20,183 nt of DNA from a virus. The stretch covers positions 1 through 20,183 of the IMG/VR virus record IMGVR_UViG_3300027743_000102. One strand, given 5' to 3'. Under the pieces are notes generated by a model that was not told the DNA's origin, searched no databases, and was given only the letters and a program-made list of their open reading frames with translations. The translations under genes were made by a program, and so were the position numbers. Positions 9,351 through 20,183 of this stretch are shown here, one piece after another (positions within the stretch are counted from its first letter, which is position 1; every line of letters starts with the position of its first letter).

Positions 9351-10022
9351 ATGACTTGGGTTGAGGAAGCGCGGGAGATGCGCAGCGGCGGGATGACCTA
9401 TCACGCGATTGGTCTTTCCGTTGGGAAACACAGTGCAACCGTTTCCCGCGCCCTCAATCCAGAGCGGCCACACCGCAACAGACAACGGGATTGGTACATC
9501 AAAAACCGCGCGGAGATCCTTGCCAAGAGGGCAGGATACTACGCCGAGCACACGGAAGAGATCAGTGCTTACAAAGCGGTGTGGCGGGAAGAAAAACGAG
9601 AGGACAGAAAGGCGAAAGACCGAGAGTATTACGCGGCCCATAAGGATGAGCGGAAGTCCCAGATGCGGGCCTATGCCGCCGAGAACCGGGAACGCATTCG
9701 CTCATATGCTGCGCGCTACCGGAAAGAACACCCAGAAGTCGAGATCGAACACGGCGCGGAAAGGAGAATGCGTATCTCTGGGTCCAGCTCCCCACAAGAA
9801 CGAGAAGCCGCTAGGAAGTTCATCCACAAAGTGAAGACGGCGCAACGAGCAATATGCTATCTGTGCGGTAAGCGCCTATCGAGAGGAGAACGAACAATAG
9901 ACCACATCATCCCGCTTGCGAAAGGGGGCAGGCACGTTACGAATAACCTGGCTTGTGCTTGCCGTAGTTGCAACAGCAAGAAGAAGGCGAAGCTTCCGGA
10001 AGAAGTCGGAGTGTTGTTATAG
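9351..10022 (+). CDS. free-standing HNH homing endonuclease
   Basis: This encodes 223 residues, starting at ATG behind AGGAGGT. Residues 14-36 ('GMTYHAIGLSVGKHSATVSR') form a helix-turn-helix for DNA binding. Residues 45-127 are a highly charged linker with repeated 'YYA.H..E' and 'YAAENRERIRSYAARY' segments. Residues 169-208 are the HNH nuclease: Cys169 and Cys172 ('CYLCG'), Asp184-His185 ('IDHIIPLAKGG'), Asn199, then Cys204, Cys207 and Asn208 ('CRSCNSKKK'). These are the metal-binding and catalytic positions of HNH enzymes with a Cys4 zinc site. It separates the tube gene from its chaperones, a typical landing place for mobile homing genes. The stretch looks more A-rich than its neighbours. 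Confidence 0.9.
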   Translation: MTWVEEAREMRSGGMTYHAIGLSVGKHSATVSRALNPERPHRNRQRDWYIKNRAEILAKRAGYYAEHTEEISAYKAVWREEKREDRKAKDREYYAAHKDERKSQMRAYAAENRERIRSYAARYRKEHPEVEIEHGAERRMRISGSSSPQEREAARKFIHKVKTAQRAICYLCGKRLSRGERTIDHIIPLAKGGRHVTNNLACACRSCNSKKKAKLPEEVGVLL

Positions 10023-10430: not shown

Positions 10431-10702
10431 CGAAGCTGTCGATCTCGTACCCAGGCACGACGCCGGACTACTGGCTAGACGAGCAGCCGCTAGAGAACTG
10501 GTTCATGTTCGTCGGGTACGCGGAGGAAGAGAAGATGCACGATGCGAGAGTGCTGATCGGGACGTGGGCGGCGGCGCACACGAAGAAGGGGCTGCCGCCC
10601 GAGAAACGCTTGATCGTGTCCTCCGTTGACGAGTCGCCGGATAGGGCCGCGTTCTACCGCAACCCGGAGATCCGCAAGCGCATCGTGAAGGGGCCGCTAT
10701 GA
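10032..10702 (+). CDS. tail assembly chaperone, long frameshift form (lambda GT-like)
   Basis: A programmed -1 shift at GGGAAAC (10379-10385) would join the first 118 residues of the short form to 105 residues read in the -1 frame, ending at TGA 10700-10702, about 223 in all (lambda gpGT is 279). The joined reading is continuous and sensible: 'EDKQGN' then 'RGNGQVSRIELGRILAKLS', 'YWLDEQPLENWFMFVGYAEE' and 'GLPPEKRLIVSS'. The -1 frame has no good start codon of its own with a ribosome site, supporting expression only by shifting. The stop overlaps the tape measure ATG (ATGA). Confidence 0.85.
10379..10422 (+). promoter_or_regulatory. programmed -1 ribosomal frameshift signal
   Basis: The heptamer G GGA AAC (10379-10385) sits in the correct X XXY YYZ phase of the short chaperone frame; lambda uses the near-identical GGGAAAG. 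After a 7-base spacer (10386-10392), CGGCCAAGT (10393-10401) and ACTTGGCCG (10414-10422) form a perfect 9-bp stem around a 12-base loop. I looked for a pseudoknot partner of the loop just downstream and saw none. Slip site, spacing and stem together make this a near-complete signal. Confidence 0.9.
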
Positions 10703-13700
10703 GCCAGATCGGGACGCTATCTATCGGCATCATCGGCGATATGGCGGGGCTATCAAAGGCTCTCGACAACGCCAAGAAGAGCGTCACTGACTTCGCGACG
10801 AAGACACAGGCTCTAGGGAAGCAAGTCTCGGACGCTGGCGTACAGATGACGAAGTGGGTCACTGGCCCGATCGTCGCGGCTGGCGCTGGCATCCTTGCCC
10901 TGACGACGAAGGTCGCCAACTACGCTGACGAGTTGCTTGACCTCAAGGCGCAGACGGGGCTCTCGACCGACTCGCTACAAGAGTGGCGACACGTCGCGGA
11001 GATCGCTGGCGTTAGCGCCGACACGGTTGCCAACGCGGTGATCGGCCTTACGCGCCGTCTGCCGTCGCTTGCCGAAGAGGGGTCCGTCAGCTCAGAGCAG
11101 CTTGCCAAGCTCGGACTCGCCTTCGAGGACTTAGCAGCGATGGACCCTGAAGACACGATCGACACGCTCATTGATCGCCTGTCGTCCATGGAGGATGTCA
11201 CTGAGCGCAACGCTATCGGCGCGAAGCTGTTCGGTGGGGCGTGGATTGAGATGGCCCCGATACTCGACGAGGGCGCGGAGGGCATCAAGGCACTACGTGA
11301 AGAGGCGCACGAACTCGGGATCGTCGTCAGCGAAGAGAGCCTCGATCAGATTGACGCATTCCGCAAGGAGTGGGTCAAGGTCAAGGAGCAGTTCGCTGGA
11401 CTGTTCCGTGAACTCGGCATGAAGCTGATGCCACTCATGCGGGACACGTTCATTCCCATCATCAAGAATACGATCGTTCCGATGCTGAAGACGTTCGCCG
11501 AGAAGATCGCGGCGCTCGTCACATGGTTCGGAAGCCTAAGCCCGAAGACGCAAGAGACGATCGTGAAGCTAGTCGCGCTCGCTGCCGTGGCGGGGCCGCT
11601 CGTTCTCACCGTCGGCAAGCTCATCACCGCTGTCGGAACACTATCGAAGGCGTTTATCGCGTTCGCTACGAATCCGATATTGCTCGGACTGGCTGGCGTA
11701 GCGGCTGTCATCGTCACGCTCATCTCACGCTTCAACGATGCGAAGCAGGCAACGTTAGAGCTTGAACAGTCTTACGTCACAGCGGCTTCCAACATGATCG
11801 CCGCGAGCGCTGATCTGTCCGAGGCGCTGGATGCGCTGGCCGCTGGCGTAGGCGACCTAGACTGGATCTTGAGCGAGGCTGACTTCTCCGCGTTGATCTC
11901 CAACCTCGACGCGCTCAAGGAGTCTCTGACGGGCGTTCCCGCTGACGAGATCGAGACGCGCTGGGCCGATGGCGTCAACCGGATCTTCGATGCGCTCGAA
12001 GCGGAGTACCCGAACCTACAGAAGATCCTTGAGACGTACCGACGCGGCTTCCTGGAGAAGGGCGAGGAGATGGCCGATGGGCTTATCAGTGGCTTCCGCG
12101 AGCAGGCGTCGGCCTTCGGTGACGCAGTAGACGCGACAGTCGCTGTCGGCCTGGGCTCTGCCGCCAACGCTACAGAAGGCTTCTCTGCGCTGGGGACGGA
12201 GGCCGGTGTCGCGTTCGGCGAGGGATTGTCGCTTGGACTCAACGAAACAGCGAAGACCGTAGACGAGTCGTTCTCCGCTGTCGGCGATAACGCCCTACTG
12301 AATCTACAGACGCAAGGCAGGATGCTCTCCACGGAAGCCGAGCGCATCGCCGCCGATACCAAGGCGCGGCTGGATGAACTCATGCGCCAGTCTGCCGAGA
12401 CAATGCAGCAGGCGGCGGAAGGCTACACGCCAGCGTTCGCAGACTTGCAGACGCAGGTCAATGCCGCTGTGTGGGCGTTCGAGATGGCGAAGCAGACATT
12501 CGGCGAGCAGTCGCTTGAAGCCGCCGCTGCCTTCCAAACGATGCTCACGGTGCAAGAGCGGTTGAAGAGTGTTTCGGACGATCTGTTCACGAACCTCAAG
12601 CAAGTCAACGGTCCGCTGCTCGATCTGATCGTCTACATGCAGGAATACACCGGGGAGCTAGAGGCGAACGAACAGTTCATGCAGTCGTTCATCGCGCACC
12701 AGCTACACGCGAAGGATGCACTTGCCGGGCTGGGGATCTCGGTAGAGCAGATGACCGGCCAGTGGTGGGAATACGCTGGGATCACGCGCACTGCGCTTGA
12801 GACGGTTGAGGATGAGACGAAGAAGACGACCGAAGCGACGGAAGATCTCGGCAAGGGAACCGATGTCGTTTTCGGGAAGTGGCGTCCGGTTCCGGGGATC
12901 GTCGGACAAGTAACGACGGCGCTATCCGCCATGAGCGAGAGTGCCAAGGTCACCGCCGAAGAGTTCCTCACGTCCGTCGCGGGCACCATGACGAGTGCCT
13001 TGACGGAGTTCGGCGAGAGCATCATGACGATGGCCGACACGAACAAGAAACTCGCAGAAGATCACAAGGCGACACTTGAACAGATCGACACCGACTACCA
13101 GACTGCCGCGACCTCCGCTGCTGACGCCCGCGACAAGGATCTTCAGAACCTCAAGGATCAACTCGCCGACGGCAAGATCACGCAAGAGACGTACACCCGC
13201 GAGATGCGCCAGGTGTGGGCCGACTACAACACGAAGTTCATCCAGGCAGAGAAGGACCGTGAGGGCGCGCTGGATGATGAGAAAACGGCATACGAAGAGC
13301 AGAAGGTCACGATCGGGAAGCTCGTCGGCGACCTCGTACATACCGTCCTGACTGGGATCGCCCGCACGTTGCTGGGCTACGCGGCGGAGCACTTCGCTCT
13401 TGGGCTTATCAATGCCGCGCTATTGAACTTCGTCCAGGCGGGGAAGGAGTTTGCGGCGTCTGGTATCGCAGCCTTGGCCGCCGCTGGCATGGGCATCTTC
13501 GAGTCTGCTATCCCGTTCGCCAAGGGCGGCATGGTCGCGGGCGCACTCGGGGAGCCCGTCCCGGCAATCGTCCACGGCGGCGAGATGGTTCTGACGCCCG
13601 AGCAACAGCGAGCCGGGCTGATCGACTACGAGATGATGAGCCATGCGATGGCTGACGCGCTTGAGGAAGTGCTACCCGGCAAGGATCGCCCGCTCTACCT

Positions 13701-13785
13701 CGTCACGGATGGGAAGGTATGGGCGAGGACAATGCTCCCTTTCCTCCAGGGTGAAGAGAAGCGGCTAGGACTGGTGACGCCATGA
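10699..13785 (+). CDS. tail tape measure protein
   Basis: This encodes 1028 residues, by far the longest complete gene. It starts in an ATGA overlap with the chaperone stop. It opens with 'IGDMAGLSKALDNAKKSVTD' and a hydrophobic stretch (about 53-70, 'WVTGPIVAAGAGILALTT'). Further hydrophobic segments lie at about 287-345 ('LVALAAVAGPLVLTVGKLIT', 'ILLGLAGVAAVIVTLIS') and about 879-907 ('IARTLLGYAAEHFALGLINA'). Long helical stretches fill the rest, including a charged coiled coil at about 790-870. 'FAKGGMVAGALGEPVPAIVH' and 'GGEMVLTPEQQ' (about 945-970) are typical of tape measure C-termini. The protein sets tail length and helps DNA pass into the cell. At about 1.5 angstrom per residue the tail would be about 150 nm. 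Confidence 0.93.
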   Translation: MSQIGTLSIGIIGDMAGLSKALDNAKKSVTDFATKTQALGKQVSDAGVQMTKWVTGPIVAAGAGILALTTKVANYADELLDLKAQTGLSTDSLQEWRHVAEIAGVSADTVANAVIGLTRRLPSLAEEGSVSSEQLAKLGLAFEDLAAMDPEDTIDTLIDRLSSMEDVTERNAIGAKLFGGAWIEMAPILDEGAEGIKALREEAHELGIVVSEESLDQIDAFRKEWVKVKEQFAGLFRELGMKLMPLMRDTFIPIIKNTIVPMLKTFAEKIAALVTWFGSLSPKTQETIVKLVALAAVAGPLVLTVGKLITAVGTLSKAFIAFATNPILLGLAGVAAVIVTLISRFNDAKQATLELEQSYVTAASNMIAASADLSEALDALAAGVGDLDWILSEADFSALISNLDALKESLTGVPADEIETRWADGVNRIFDALEAEYPNLQKILETYRRGFLEKGEEMADGLISGFREQASAFGDAVDATVAVGLGSAANATEGFSALGTEAGVAFGEGLSLGLNETAKTVDESFSAVGDNALLNLQTQGRMLSTEAERIAADTKARLDELMRQSAETMQQAAEGYTPAFADLQTQVNAAVWAFEMAKQTFGEQSLEAAAAFQTMLTVQERLKSVSDDLFTNLKQVNGPLLDLIVYMQEYTGELEANEQFMQSFIAHQLHAKDALAGLGISVEQMTGQWWEYAGITRTALETVEDETKKTTEATEDLGKGTDVVFGKWRPVPGIVGQVTTALSAMSESAKVTAEEFLTSVAGTMTSALTEFGESIMTMADTNKKLAEDHKATLEQIDTDYQTAATSAADARDKDLQNLKDQLADGKITQETYTREMRQVWADYNTKFIQAEKDREGALDDEKTAYEEQKVTIGKLVGDLVHTVLTGIARTLLGYAAEHFALGLINAALLNFVQAGKEFAASGIAALAAAGMGIFESAIPFAKGGMVAGALGEPVPAIVHGGEMVLTPEQQRAGLIDYEMMSHAMADALEEVLPGKDRPLYLVTDGKVWARTMLPFLQGEEKRLGLVTP

Positions 13786-14779: not shown

Positions 14780-14792
14780 TCGGGGGTGAATG

Positions 14793-16208
14793 ATGGCGAA
14801 ACCGTATGCAGTCTTGAACGAAGTACAGGACGAGTTGACATCGAACTTCGTCCACGGCACAGACAACCATCTTCACCTCGTCTCTGCCGCTGCATTTGAT
14901 TCCGGTGGAGGGTACATCCGTGTCGAGACGGCGGATGGTACTCACTGGGTTCTGTACGAGTACACTTCCGTAGCGACGAACGATCTAAACGGCCTGACGC
15001 CGTGTACGCTTGGCGTGGTTGAGACGGACGCTGCGTACACGTTCACAAGCGGCTCAATCGTATCGCGGGTTGTGATGGCCGAGGATGTTTCGGAACTCAT
15101 CACGGGGCCAGCCAGCGCGACGGACGGTGCTCCGGTGGGCTTCGATGGCACGACGGGATCGAAGGCCAAGGAACTGACAGCAGCGGCGCTGTCTTCCTAC
15201 CTTGGCACGTTCACGAGCGCGAGCGTGACGCTTTACGTTGCGAAGACGGGGAATGACGGGAATGCAGGAACGTCAGGAAGCCCGAAATTGACGATCACTG
15301 GCGCGTTGAACGCGCTGCCGATCACGATTGCGCACGCCTGTTACATCAATGTGATGAATGGAACGTACACGGAATCTCTGACGACTCCGCTCAGCCGGTT
15401 CAACGTGCTGGCGTCGCTGACGATCCGAGCCATGAACACGTCCGACGTGGCTCTACACTGTCGCGGTGAGGCAACGGCTGGCGCGGCCACGACCATCACC
15501 GTGGAAGCCGCCCACGTCACCGCGGACGATCAGTGGAATGGCGGGCAGGTCATTCTATGGAAGGACACTGGCTCCGGGCAGATTCGCGACATCACCGACT
15601 CAGACGAATCCGACAATACCGTCACGGTGGCGACGTGGGACACGAACCCGGCCAGCGGGACCGACTACATCCTCACGGGCCTCGTGGTCATCGACGGCGA
15701 CACAGTGAGCGCGGTGTCTGCGTCTGGCTGCCGCAACGTCTATTTCGAGGGCATCCGGTTCACGGTATCGGGCTCTGACGCTTATAATTGCGTGGACCTC
15801 AACGGCTTCTCATACCTGACGTTCACCAACTGCCTATTCGACGACATCTACGCCTTCAGTTGCGGGACCTCGTCAGCGGCGATGATCTGGTACTGCGGCT
15901 TCCGTATCCCAGCGAGCGGATACGGGCTCACATGCCAGACCGGATCGTTCGTCACTGTCACTGGCGGCGTTGCCTACGGCGCGAAGTCGAGCGACTTTGG
16001 CGTGTACGTCGCATCGGGCGGGACAGTCAACGTGGCGAGTCTCCAGGTGCGGCACTGCGCAACGGGCGTGCGAGCCGCATCTGGCGGCTGGCAACTCGGT
16101 TCCTTCATCACCTACACAGACAATACGACAAACACGAACCCTGATACCCCGTCTGATACAGCCGCAATCGTGGCGGACGGCTTCGCGTTCATACAGGATC
16201 AGAGCTAG
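14793..16208 (+). CDS. beta-helix tail protein (tailspike-like)
   Basis: This encodes 471 residues. ATG 14793 is preferred over ATG 14790 because GGGGG (14782-14786) is then better spaced. The N-terminus ('MAKPYAVLNEVQDELTSNFV', then 'YIRVETADGTHWVLYEYTSV') is probably the tail-attachment part. At residues 148-172 'LYVAKTGNDGNAGTSGSPKL' and 'TITGAL' open a right-handed beta-helix. Repeated coils follow: 'CRNVYFEGIRFTVSGSDAYN', 'FSYLTFTNCLFDDIYAFSCG' and 'VNVASLQVRHCATGVRAASG'. Such helices bind or cleave surface glycans in phage tail spikes; no acidic catalytic cluster is obvious here. It lies between tail proteins and the transglutaminase-like gene. A receptor-binding role is inferred. Confidence 0.72.
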   Translation: MAKPYAVLNEVQDELTSNFVHGTDNHLHLVSAAAFDSGGGYIRVETADGTHWVLYEYTSVATNDLNGLTPCTLGVVETDAAYTFTSGSIVSRVVMAEDVSELITGPASATDGAPVGFDGTTGSKAKELTAAALSSYLGTFTSASVTLYVAKTGNDGNAGTSGSPKLTITGALNALPITIAHACYINVMNGTYTESLTTPLSRFNVLASLTIRAMNTSDVALHCRGEATAGAATTITVEAAHVTADDQWNGGQVILWKDTGSGQIRDITDSDESDNTVTVATWDTNPASGTDYILTGLVVIDGDTVSAVSASGCRNVYFEGIRFTVSGSDAYNCVDLNGFSYLTFTNCLFDDIYAFSCGTSSAAMIWYCGFRIPASGYGLTCQTGSFVTVTGGVAYGAKSSDFGVYVASGGTVNVASLQVRHCATGVRAASGGWQLGSFITYTDNTTNTNPDTPSDTAAIVADGFAFIQDQS

Positions 16209-16216
16209 GAGGCTCT

Positions 16217-17254
16217 ATGGGTGTCTGGGGGCGGGATCGCTACGGGGCAGAGACGGCGCTAGGCGGAGGGATCTGGGTTCCTCCGCCCGATGCGTTCGTG
16301 CAGACGCGGATCACGCTCGCCATGGCGACGGACAAGGATTCTGTCACGGTCAGCCTCCCCACTGGCTGGTATCGCGCCGTCCTCGATACGGGAGTTCTCT
16401 ACGACTTCGCGGAGGAAATGCCGTGGGCGCTGCACGGCGGGGCGTACAACGACGTGAACAAGGCAACGGTCTACGCGGTCGCGGCAGACGATTCACAGGA
16501 GTACGTGGGTGAGATTGAGATCCTACGCCAATCTGAGCGTGTCCTCTTTGAGCGGTACGGATTCGTCCAGCAGTATGGTTACGTCCTGATCGGGCGTTGC
16601 TCGTTCGAGCTATCCGATCCTGGGACGACAAGCTACTCGACGACGAGTATGGCCGAACTCACGGCGAGTGAACAGGCGGCGATCCGCGATCTCTTTCCTA
16701 GCATCACAAAAGCACAGGCGACGCCAGATCAGTCGCCATCTGTGGCGCTTGAGAACGCCATCGCGGTTCAGGAAGTTCTCGCGCCGTACCTCCTCAACAA
16801 CGGACCCTCTTCGATCTGGAGCGGATCGCACACGCCGTCTGAATGCTTCGACCTTGTGATGAATGAAGACGCGCCCGTGATGTGCGGAATGGCGCAGCTT
16901 CTCTACGCCTATCTCGCCATCTCGACCCGCAACTTCACAGCGGCGGATGTGCATAAGACGAATCTGCGCCGCTATGCGGACATCCCGGGGATCACGATGA
17001 ACAGCCATGCCGTGATCGCTCTAGACGCCTCGGATGGTTGGTTCATGTTCGATCCGTTCGCGGGCGTGTACTGCACGAACGGAGCGAACCTACTCAGCGC
17101 GGACGAGATCAGATCCGCCGACAAGGACGACGTGACGGTGAACGCGATCGGAGACGCCGCCTGGGAACCGGACTTCGGGCCTGCCCCCTACGACTACAAC
17201 TACTTCTGCCACTTCAACTACATCGAGCACCTCACGTTGACGGGAGTGGGATAG
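16217..17254 (+). CDS. tail protein with a transglutaminase-like domain
   Basis: This encodes 345 residues; ATG follows AGGAGG. It opens with 'MGVWGRDRYG', like the next protein. Residues 25-140 are beta-rich and not recognised. Residues about 175-290 look like a transglutaminase-like (papain-fold) domain: a helix beginning with Cys223 ('PVMCGMAQLLYAYL'), 'NLRRYADIPGITMNSHAVIA' with His264, then 'WFMFDPFAGVY' with Asp279. This order and spacing of Cys, His and Asp, with the Asp in a 'W..FDP' turn, is the family's catalytic layout. Members are proteases, amidases or cross-linking enzymes. In a tail-tip operon it could cut or cross-link cell-wall or virion peptides; the substrate is unknown. 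It ends one base before the next GTG. Confidence 0.7.
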   Translation: MGVWGRDRYGAETALGGGIWVPPPDAFVQTRITLAMATDKDSVTVSLPTGWYRAVLDTGVLYDFAEEMPWALHGGAYNDVNKATVYAVAADDSQEYVGEIEILRQSERVLFERYGFVQQYGYVLIGRCSFELSDPGTTSYSTTSMAELTASEQAAIRDLFPSITKAQATPDQSPSVALENAIAVQEVLAPYLLNNGPSSIWSGSHTPSECFDLVMNEDAPVMCGMAQLLYAYLAISTRNFTAADVHKTNLRRYADIPGITMNSHAVIALDASDGWFMFDPFAGVYCTNGANLLSADEIRSADKDDVTVNAIGDAAWEPDFGPAPYDYNYFCHFNYIEHLTLTGVG

Positions 17255-17255
17255 C

Positions 17256-20183
17256 GTGTTCGGACACAACCGCTACGGGACAACGAGGTATGGATCGAAA
17301 GGACCCGCGCTTGGCGTCACCTATACGAAGACCGTAGCGACGGCGACCGTAGCGACTGTCGGTTCGGTGCCCCGCGAAGCTGGCAAGCACGTCACCGGAA
17401 CCGTCCAGGCGGTGGGGACGTCTATCAGGCCGGTCAAGGTCACGCGAGCCATTAGCGGGGCCGTAGGATCGATCGGTGCCGTAGCGCGGGCGACTTCCAA
17501 GCATGTCGCGGCGGCGACAGTCGCGACGGTAGCAACGGTTCCTAGCAGATTCTATCGCTGGATCAAGGTAGTCGCTACGGCTACGGTAGAAGCTGTTGGC
17601 ACTGTCACCCGCAAGACCGGCCAACACGTAACCGCCATCGTCTCGACGGTCGCATCAATCACGCCGCGCAACATCAAGCGGGCGATTTCGGCGACGGTCG
17701 ACACGCTGGGGACGGTTGCTCGATCCACGGCCAAGCACGTCGCCGCCGCCACGGTTTCCACGGTCGGCTCGGTACTCCGTGGGATGGTATGGCACAAGCT
17801 AGTCGCCACGGCGGTTGTCTCGACAGTGGGCACGGTCAAGCGGAAGACGGGCAAGCACGTCACGGGCACGGCTACCGCCATCGGGCTCAGCATCCGCCCG
17901 ATCACCGTAGGCAAGCACGTTACGGGAACTGTCGCCACAGTCGGCACGATCCGCCCGGTCAACATCTGGCGCACGATCATGGCGGCAGTCGGCACGGTCG
18001 GCGTCGTTCTCCAGAAGACAAGCAAGCACGTCGCCACGGCTACCGTTTCGACCGTTGCCACGATCCTGTCGACCGCTGTCCAAGTTGTCACAGGCGGCGT
18101 GTCCACTCTCGCCAGCGTCTCGCGTAAGACCTTCCGACACGTCACCGCCGTCGTGTCCACCGTCGCTACCGTCTCCGACTTCCTCTACGACATCGTCTAC
18201 GCCATGAATCAGACCATCCGCCACATCTACGGAAAAGTCCGCATCACCTACACGGACCCGTACTTCTCCGCAGGCGTGGCGACTTCCGCCGATGCCGTTG
18301 GCGACTACACCTACACGGATCAGACCGTTGACAACGTGACAACCGAGACGTACAAGTGGTTTTCGCTGCACCGCAACATACTCGACGGTACCTTCCATCC
18401 GCTGCCCGGCGATCAGTCGATCTCGGTTGGATGGTGGGGCACACAGCTATCGGACTTCGTGACGCACGCCTTCGTGCCGACCTATCCTAAGCTCACGCTG
18501 ACGCACGCGGCCCGTACCGTCTCCGACTTGCTCGTTGTCGGCGACGACAAGCTCGACGAGTACCCCGTCGACTTCACGATCAAGCTCTACAACGCCTCGA
18601 ACGTGCTACAGCACACCGAGACGGTTGTCGGCAACGCGTACTACTACTACTCGACGCCGCTCTCGCCAGCGCATACCGGAATTGCCAAGCAGGTGCTAGA
18701 GATCACGAAGTGGAGTCGCGGGGATTCCGTCGTCAAGATCGCACAGTTCTTCACGACGCTTGAAGAGACGTACGAGAGCGAAGACGGCGAACTCGTTGAC
18801 ATCAACGTCACTGAGCAACGCGAGTTCACGGGGACCACCATCCCGCAAGGCAACCTCGCCAACTCGGAGATTCGTGTCCGTCTCAACAACATCGACGGTA
18901 CGTTCGACGCAGGCAACACGGCGAGCCGCTTGAATGGCCTGCTGTTGAACAACCGCGCGATCACCGCCTGGCTCGGCGTCGACCTTATCCCGTCCGGTGT
19001 GCGGCGCTGGTATCCGCTTGGGACGTTCTACTCACGCGATTGGTCCGCCCCGGATTCGGAGATCTGGGCCGAGGTAAGCGGTCAGGACATGCTCGCCCGC
19101 TTGCAGTCGACCACGTTCTCTACGTCCACCGTCTACGAATCGAAGACGCTGGAAGAGCTTGCCATCGTCATCATGACCGACGCGGGCCTGACTTCGGCGG
19201 ACTGGGACATTGACGCGGCACTCGCTGCGATCACCGTACCCTACGCCTGGTTCGATGCTGTCTCGCATCGTGAGTGCCTGCGCAAGATTGCCGCCGCGTG
19301 CATGGGCCAGTGCTACTGCAACCGTGACGGCAAGATCGTCCTTGAGGTCTACTCCGCGCCGAGTCTCAATCCGTTCGAGTACACGTCGGGTAACGTGTTC
19401 GACATCGACCATCCGCTTCAGTGGTCGCAGATGGTGAACTACGTGCAGGCGCGAGCGACACCGCGTGAACTAAGCGTCGAACAGGATATCGTTACGGACG
19501 TTGAAGTCTTCACGGTCCCCGCCCTGAGCAGCGTGACGAAGCTCCACTACTACATCTCGTCACCGTGCAAGGACGTTACCGCTCCGACAATCGTTGGCGG
19601 GGCAGACATCACCGTGAGCGCGTACACCGCCTACGCTTGGGGAATCTCAGTGACCTACGCGAATGCTGGCGTCGGTGATGAGACGGTGACGAGCACGACG
19701 GTACGCGGCAAGGTGCTAGAAGAGGTAAGCGGGAAACTCGTGACGGCTCAGGACGCCGCCTCGATCGCGCAGAATGGCAAGCAGACGCTCTCGGAAACGA
19801 TCACCTCAGAGTTCTGGCAGGATGAGACGCGGGCGCAGGAAGTGGCCGACGGGATCTTGACTACCTACCGCAACCCGCGCCGCGACATCGTGATGCGGGC
19901 ACGCGGCAACATCGCGCAACTGCTCGGCGATCGCGTCAAGTGCCCCGACTCGTTGACAGCGGGGACGACGGCGCACTTCGGCATTGTCGGACAGGACATC
20001 TCATACGACGGCGGACTAGAGATCGTCGTGACCGCGCAACGGCTGGGGGTAATGACCTCGAAGACGGTCACGGCGACGGTCGGGACGGTAGCAACGAGAT
20101 CGTGGAAGCCCGTAGCGAAGAAGGGACTAGCGGTTGGAACTGTCGCCACGGTGGCTACCGTCGCCCGCAAGGCAACGCACAAG
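17256..20183 (+). CDS. giant tail hub protein with flanking repeats (partial, 3' end missing)
   Basis: An open frame of 976 codons runs from GTG 17256 off the window end. An in-frame stop at 17238-17240 makes this GTG the first possible start. It begins 'VFGHNRYGTTRYGSKG'. Residues 25-306 are a repeat tract. Residues about 326-510 hold strand-rich domains, including 'EYPVDFTIKLYNASNVLQHT' and 'ITKWSRGDSVVKIAQFF', resembling a galactose-binding (F5/8-like) domain. Residues about 515-930 look like a tail hub: 'GNLANSEIRVRLNNIDGTFD', 'RAITAWLGVDL', 'WYPLGTFYSRDWSAP', 'TLEELAIVIMTDAGL', 'VPYAWFDAVSHRECLRKIAA' and 'CYCNRDGKIVLEVY'. The repeats resume at residue 936. It probably forms the tail tip around the tape measure end. 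Confidence 0.8.
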   Translation, partial: MFGHNRYGTTRYGSKGPALGVTYTKTVATATVATVGSVPREAGKHVTGTVQAVGTSIRPVKVTRAISGAVGSIGAVARATSKHVAAATVATVATVPSRFYRWIKVVATATVEAVGTVTRKTGQHVTAIVSTVASITPRNIKRAISATVDTLGTVARSTAKHVAAATVSTVGSVLRGMVWHKLVATAVVSTVGTVKRKTGKHVTGTATAIGLSIRPITVGKHVTGTVATVGTIRPVNIWRTIMAAVGTVGVVLQKTSKHVATATVSTVATILSTAVQVVTGGVSTLASVSRKTFRHVTAVVSTVATVSDFLYDIVYAMNQTIRHIYGKVRITYTDPYFSAGVATSADAVGDYTYTDQTVDNVTTETYKWFSLHRNILDGTFHPLPGDQSISVGWWGTQLSDFVTHAFVPTYPKLTLTHAARTVSDLLVVGDDKLDEYPVDFTIKLYNASNVLQHTETVVGNAYYYYSTPLSPAHTGIAKQVLEITKWSRGDSVVKIAQFFTTLEETYESEDGELVDINVTEQREFTGTTIPQGNLANSEIRVRLNNIDGTFDAGNTASRLNGLLLNNRAITAWLGVDLIPSGVRRWYPLGTFYSRDWSAPDSEIWAEVSGQDMLARLQSTTFSTSTVYESKTLEELAIVIMTDAGLTSADWDIDAALAAITVPYAWFDAVSHRECLRKIAAACMGQCYCNRDGKIVLEVYSAPSLNPFEYTSGNVFDIDHPLQWSQMVNYVQARATPRELSVEQDIVTDVEVFTVPALSSVTKLHYYISSPCKDVTAPTIVGGADITVSAYTAYAWGISVTYANAGVGDETVTSTTVRGKVLEEVSGKLVTAQDAASIAQNGKQTLSETITSEFWQDETRAQEVADGILTTYRNPRRDIVMRARGNIAQLLGDRVKCPDSLTAGTTAHFGIVGQDISYDGGLEIVVTAQRLGVMTSKTVTATVGTVATRSWKPVAKKGLAVGTVATVATVARKATHK
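17328..18179 (+). repeat. hierarchical coding repeat (about 19-residue units in 4-unit super-repeats)
   Basis: Fifteen imperfect units of 18-22 residues follow the consensus K-H-V-x-[AG]-T-V-[AS]-T-V-G-[TS]-V-x-R-K-T-G. They group into super-repeats starting at 17385, 17622 and 17913 (residues 44, 123 and 220). Each runs an 'HVT' unit, an 'R-[AT]-I-[SM]' unit, a 'KHVA' unit and a fourth unit of which two have the form 'VATATV...GTVxRKTG'. An extra 'HVT' unit stands at residue 200 and a last one at residue 294. Synonymous codons differ widely between copies, so the repeats are kept at protein level and are not recent DNA duplications. Confidence 0.85.
20061..20183 (+). repeat. second tract of the same repeat, cut by the window end
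   Basis: After the hub domain the frame returns to the repeat: 'KTVTATVGTVATRSWKPVAK' and then 'VGTVATVATVARKATHK', closely matching the first N-terminal unit ('TKTVATATVATVGSV'). At least two units are visible and the tract continues past the window. Confidence 0.8.

Follow-up and report, generated by a model that had tools for sequence, protein, structure and literature searches.

A candidate new family of basic, length-variable repeats on both sides of the hub domain in a siphophage tail protein

The whole stretch of DNA analysed here (the window) comes from an uncultured phage; its record, a virus fragment of 20,183 bases, carries a head and tail module. Its genes are ordered as head maturation protease, major head protein, Neck1-like protein, tail terminator, HNH endonuclease and tape measure protein, and this layout is that of a siphophage. 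The tail module reads Neck1, tail terminator, a tail protein with a weak Ig-like match, tape measure and then hub, with the HNH endonuclease gene (9351-10022) standing between the gene of the Ig-like tail protein and the tape measure gene. As is usual for a siphophage tail module, the hub gene lies after the tape measure gene (10699-13785), from which it is separated by four ORFs (two small ones, then two larger ones). A 472-aa ORF at 14790-16208 has weak similarity to DUF1565 and LIC10774 and possibly encodes a parallel beta-helix tail protein. The ORF at 16217-17254, just upstream of the hub gene, starts with MGVWGRDRYGAE, which resembles the YG motif of the array protein described below, and contains a CGMAQLLYAY...HAVIALD...WFMFDPFAG pattern that looks like that of a transglutaminase-type cysteine peptidase, a likeness backed by no Pfam or NCBIfam match. 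The hub gene itself contains the following features (L numbers designate family members found in IMG/VR):

17256-20183, plus strand: hub gene with a GTG start; the frame is open to the contig end, 976 aa are seen and the C-terminus is cut by the record end
17259-17294, plus strand: N-terminal motif FGHNRYGTTRYG (family pattern YGxNRYGxxRYG), located in front of the array; a motif of this kind opens the array protein in L002, L004, L007, L008, L010, L022 and L018
17328-17564, plus strand: super-repeat 1, units 1-4, types A, B, C, D (79 aa)
17565-17795, plus strand: super-repeat 2, units 5-8, order A-(B-like)-C-D (77 aa)
17796-18080, plus strand: super-repeat 3, units 9-13, types A, B, B, C, D (95 aa)
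18081-18134, plus strand: unit 14, penultimate, with a Gly-Gly-Val core (family matrix)
18135-18179, plus strand: unit 15, the last one ahead of the hub domain (family matrix)
18198-19925, plus strand: hub core, aa ~315-890, a ~600-residue domain with a gp27/VgrG/Mu gp44-like fold; phrog_13879, E 4.5e-40
18261-18746, plus strand: discoidin/CBM32-like domain inside the hub, aa ~336-497; 4zy9_A Z 7.5, 2xqx_A Z 7.2, 4gwi_A Z 7.2, on a medium-confidence model
20061-20183, plus strand: at least two more units 3' of the hub domain, truncated where the contig ends; their cores are at aa 936-949 and 957-970

An initial annotation of this DNA had called the product a tail hub protein, and this is supported: the PHROG matches are to a tail family, and residues ~315-890 have a fold like that of Mu gp44, VgrG, T5 pb3 and lambda gpJ. 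A single-chain AlphaFold model built with ten sequences had a mean pLDDT of 42, with values of 70-90 in parts of the hub and ~25 in the array. VIA-align matched its hub to a phage Milano baseplate protein (Z 10.5 over 130 residues), the Mu baseplate (9.4), VgrG (8.7), a Streptomyces contractile injection system (8.3) and the T5 and lambda tail tips (~7), the structure matches including 9ki1_G (Z 9.4), 9jg9_E (Z 8.7), 9gtr_q (Z 8.3), 1wru (Z 7.7), 8k35_A (Z 7.6) and 7zhj_b (Z 6.9). On this medium-confidence model, the likeness is one of overall arrangement only, with an rmsd of 8-10 Å over ~240 residues. The discoidin/CBM32 matches of residues ~336-497 span Z 6-7.5, and CBM insertions in the gp27-like domain are described for some hub proteins, termed 'evolved Tals' (PMC7291167).

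In the usual Tal layout, the hub domain comes first and the extension behind it, with exceptions such as T5 pb3 (PMC7291167). The window protein departs from this order by placing a large extension, of 15 repeat units, ahead of its hub domain; since exceptions such as T5 pb3 exist in the literature, its assignment to the gp27/VgrG type was kept. It resembles gp27/VgrG-type hubs (Mu gp44, T5 pb3, lambda gpJ; the siphophage 'Tal') in its core fold and in the position of its gene downstream of the tape measure gene, but differs from them in having a 15-unit array ahead of the hub domain and another array behind it. For the phage Jersey hub protein, N-terminal additions whose placement is uncertain have been reported, and both Jersey gp32 and lambda gpJ share with the window protein the presence of extra N-terminal material, but these are described as small globular domains or lambda-like additions, whereas the window has a repeat array (PMC13243795). 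The hub is of a known kind, to which the array adds a new accessory.

The array before the hub (aa 25-308, 17328-18179) consists of 15 units of 18-22 residues, as delimited with a position-specific matrix built from family members, which found 140 units in ten proteins against ~1.4 expected from shuffled versions. All 15 units that had been drawn initially were recovered at identical coordinates, but the units behind the hub and the occurrence of the repeat across a family had been missed. The super-repeats, described at first as three full copies of 74-79 residues, need a correction: the four unit types do recur in order, but the third copy has five units and 95 residues. Since this super-repeat contains a second B unit, the strongest autocorrelation peak of the array lies at lag 97 (0.277), followed by lag 78 (0.224), while the best lag of shuffled sequences has a 99.8th percentile of 0.209; the observed similarity between units four apart was reached by 81 of 5000 shuffled unit orders. 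Likewise, only part of the units have the basic 'RKTGKHV' joint that had been reported; in general, the joint between units reads R-x-x-x-K. The silent divergence between copies was confirmed, with different codons at 68% of the positions where two window units share an amino acid, and Tandem Repeats Finder detected no DNA repeat in the array, whose copies are too diverged to show as tandem repeats.

The array was compared with known sequences. In profile searches against Pfam, PHROG and NCBIfam, no match passed the curated cut-offs (the best of the weak PHROG matches had E 0.005), PDB sequences gave no credible match and tblastn with three arrays found nothing credible among isolated phages. 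The best tblastn match (Curvibacter phage P26059A, E 0.004) and a PhiCh1 match were rejected, as both lie on the strand opposite to annotated genes; as a positive control, tblastn with the low-complexity filter on does recover known relatives at this database size. There was no match to the array in the plasmid collections searched, and a search of genomes with the hub found nothing. A two-unit DNA pattern matched bacterial genomes twice, neither match containing repeats on reading; this pattern covered units exactly 18 apart and is not exhaustive, so that a wider occurrence is possible. A scan with the L010 array recovered L010 only, and literature searches for the repeat found nothing relevant. 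Judged from sequence, the array is a candidate new repeat family, absent from the libraries searched, in line with the original remark that no named phage repeat family is known to have this form.

Relatives of the window protein were found by searching IMG/VR with the hub domain. Eight of them (L002, L003, L004, L007, L008, L010, L011 and L012) have an array before the hub and units after it; their hubs remain 53-78% identical to that of the window while the number of units before the hub varies from 9 to 19, the counts for L011 and L012 being lower bounds since both are cut at their starts. The L019 sequence begins inside the hub and has units after it, and the L018 and L022 fragments stop within the array. 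In L020 (5911-7812), the hub is ~33% identical, only ~30 residues stand ahead of it and no repeat unit is found on either side; considering this array-less hub next to the array-bearing relatives, the array is apparently an accessory that belongs to a single hub lineage. The family pattern is clearer than the window's own units: 18 residues of the form K-x-[LIV]-x-[AG]-x-V-x-[VAT]-x-[GA]-[TS]-V-x-R-x-[IVT]-x. Among 72 exact 18-mers, positions 3, 5, 7, 9, 11 and 13 are hydrophobic or small in 82-99%, Lys or Arg occupies position 1 in 89% and position 15 in 94-97%, and acidic residues are near zero.

The window array has no confident fold in the full-length model. Six units of L022 were modelled separately by AlphaFold, with an alignment of 19 family stretches taken as non-overlapping six-unit windows. 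The best of five models (mean pLDDT 61, pTM 0.53; 45-51 for the other four) has one strand per 18-residue unit, at residues 6-15, 24-33, 42-49, 61-67, 81-88 and 99-102. Its top VIA-align match was FwdC (Z 9.3, 2.4 Å over 108 residues), a Z that for a repeat fold may reflect a common arrangement, as the tool itself notes, since repeat folds attract such matches; Foldseek E-values were all above 0.1. Lower-ranked matches were an RTX block, ice-binding proteins, hexapeptide enzymes and CsgA, and nearly all PDB matches of the model are, by what we take to be their fold class, beta-solenoids. The beta-solenoid suggested initially thus receives moderate support from L022, but not from the window array itself: the model points with moderate confidence to a parallel solenoid in which each coil holds a single long strand.

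Motifs of known solenoids were also looked for in six arrays. The hexapeptide pattern of left-handed beta-helices ([LIV][GAED]..[STAV]. three in a row), the RTX beta-roll motif (GGxGxD) and the CsgA curli repeat (SxxxxxQxGxxNxAxxxQ) each gave 0 matches, and the similarity to the GXGXG domain (FwdC / glutamate synthase) is one of fold only, with no Pfam match and a single GxxGxxxG in the six arrays. As a putative beta-solenoid, the array would resemble FwdC (formylmethanofuran dehydrogenase subunit C), on which the L022 model superposes, as well as ice-binding proteins and CsgA, but it has another motif, would carry paired Lys/Arg ladders and showed no sequence relationship to any of them. With curli CsgA and other functional amyloid repeats it has in common tandem, probably beta-forming units of ~20 residues, but it lacks the CsgA motif, and where curli have their Gln/Asn pattern its joints are strongly basic.

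The reading that we prefer, and to which we give about even chances, is that the repeats constitute a new family and fold into a basic beta-solenoid rod of variable length, mounted on a hub of known kind and with a putative role as a spacer or adhesive stalk. Each unit of ~18 residues would be a strand alternating small or hydrophobic residues with Thr/Ser/Asn, followed by the Arg-x-x-x-Lys joint; the units would most likely stack into a parallel beta-solenoid, along which the joints would align as two ladders of positive charge. One such rod would stand ahead of the hub domain and a shorter one behind it.

Alternatively, the units may form an antiparallel up-and-down sheet, or three chains may wind into a trimeric beta-prism or spiral, making a fibre rather than a single-chain solenoid. 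The alternation of residues would suit any long amphipathic strand, and trimeric beta folds are frequent in viral fibre shafts. The only usable model (L022) nevertheless yields mostly solenoid matches, and the unit length of 18 differs from the 15 residues of the triple beta-spiral repeat. Known tail hubs of this kind are trimers (PMC7291167), so that a trimer is expected for this hub too and three arrays would be close together. Altogether, we regard a fibre as possible but unlikely.

The ends of the arrays bear on the role of the rods. The YGxNRYGxxRYG motif or a close variant begins the array in most members, and other sequence precedes the N-terminal array in L003 (~300 residues) and L011. 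A ~140-residue domain ends the C-terminal array and is common to L002, L004, L008 and L011 (mutual E 7e-12 to 9e-34), and L012 and L019 carry different sequences at this place; none of these flanking domains had a credible Pfam match. Arrays that differ in length and carry exchangeable ends would be expected of a spacer, and it is from these two properties that we infer a stalk. On the solenoid reading, the rods would probably be stiff, length-variable spacers at the tail tip that keep exchangeable end domains off the hub, and the Lys/Arg ladders may adhere to acidic cell-surface polymers. A further, tentative and rather doubtful version is that of a new beta-solenoid class, with its two Lys/Arg ladders running along rods on both sides of the hub, in which gain and loss of units would tune both reach and electrostatic grip. 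If the fold holds, an undescribed repeat is added to the known components of phage tail tips, and its naturally length-varied basic rods could serve for testing tail reach against cell-surface layers. Two observations on these flanks stand apart: in L007 (4900-8193), YGxNRYGxxRYG occurs three times in one protein, with one N-terminal copy and two copies close to the C-terminus, as might be seen for a docking tag, and the ~300 residues of L003 (6258-7208) resemble three tandem ~100-residue beta domains, without Pfam match.

The charge of the array could also be read otherwise. In nine out of nine proteins, array and hub have opposite net charges (+18 to +48 for every array and -25 to -51 for every hub), and the tape measure protein has a net charge of -64. 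The array may then be an assembly device that is wound around the acidic hub or contacts the tape measure protein, likewise acidic, acting as an electrostatic clamp during tail-tip assembly, which would fit the published contact of the tape measure C-terminus with the hub cavity (PMC7291167). A fixed interface would, however, not be expected to vary in unit number, the end domains on the arrays suggest outward display and the hub relative with 33% identity does without an array, all of which makes such a clamp improbable.

Constraint on the array was estimated. The penultimate unit before the hub has a Gly-Gly-[VI] core in eight of the nine proteins with a readable array (Ser-Gly-Ala in L002), and the order of units at the end of the window array matches that of L002. 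For the last seven units of these two, dN was ~0.42 and dS ~0.80, against ~0.17 and ~0.79 for the hub, giving ratios of ~0.52 and ~0.22 that are rough, as they come from short, biased stretches. The long-term selection proposed by the initial annotation is thereby supported, in a weaker form than on the hub: from codon comparison, the array is constrained, but less than the hub. Protein evolution ~2.4 times that of the hub and the low pLDDT of the full-length model would suit a low-constraint, mostly disordered linker kept for its composition only, but the strict position pattern of 124 units in nine proteins, the unit order shared by the ends of the window and L002 arrays and the conserved penultimate unit make this very unlikely.

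In three relatives (L002 10928-12061, L003 10432-11541 and L004 10954-12120), the product of the next gene after the hub is beta-propeller-like and has YVKxGGVW-type repeats close to its N-terminal end.
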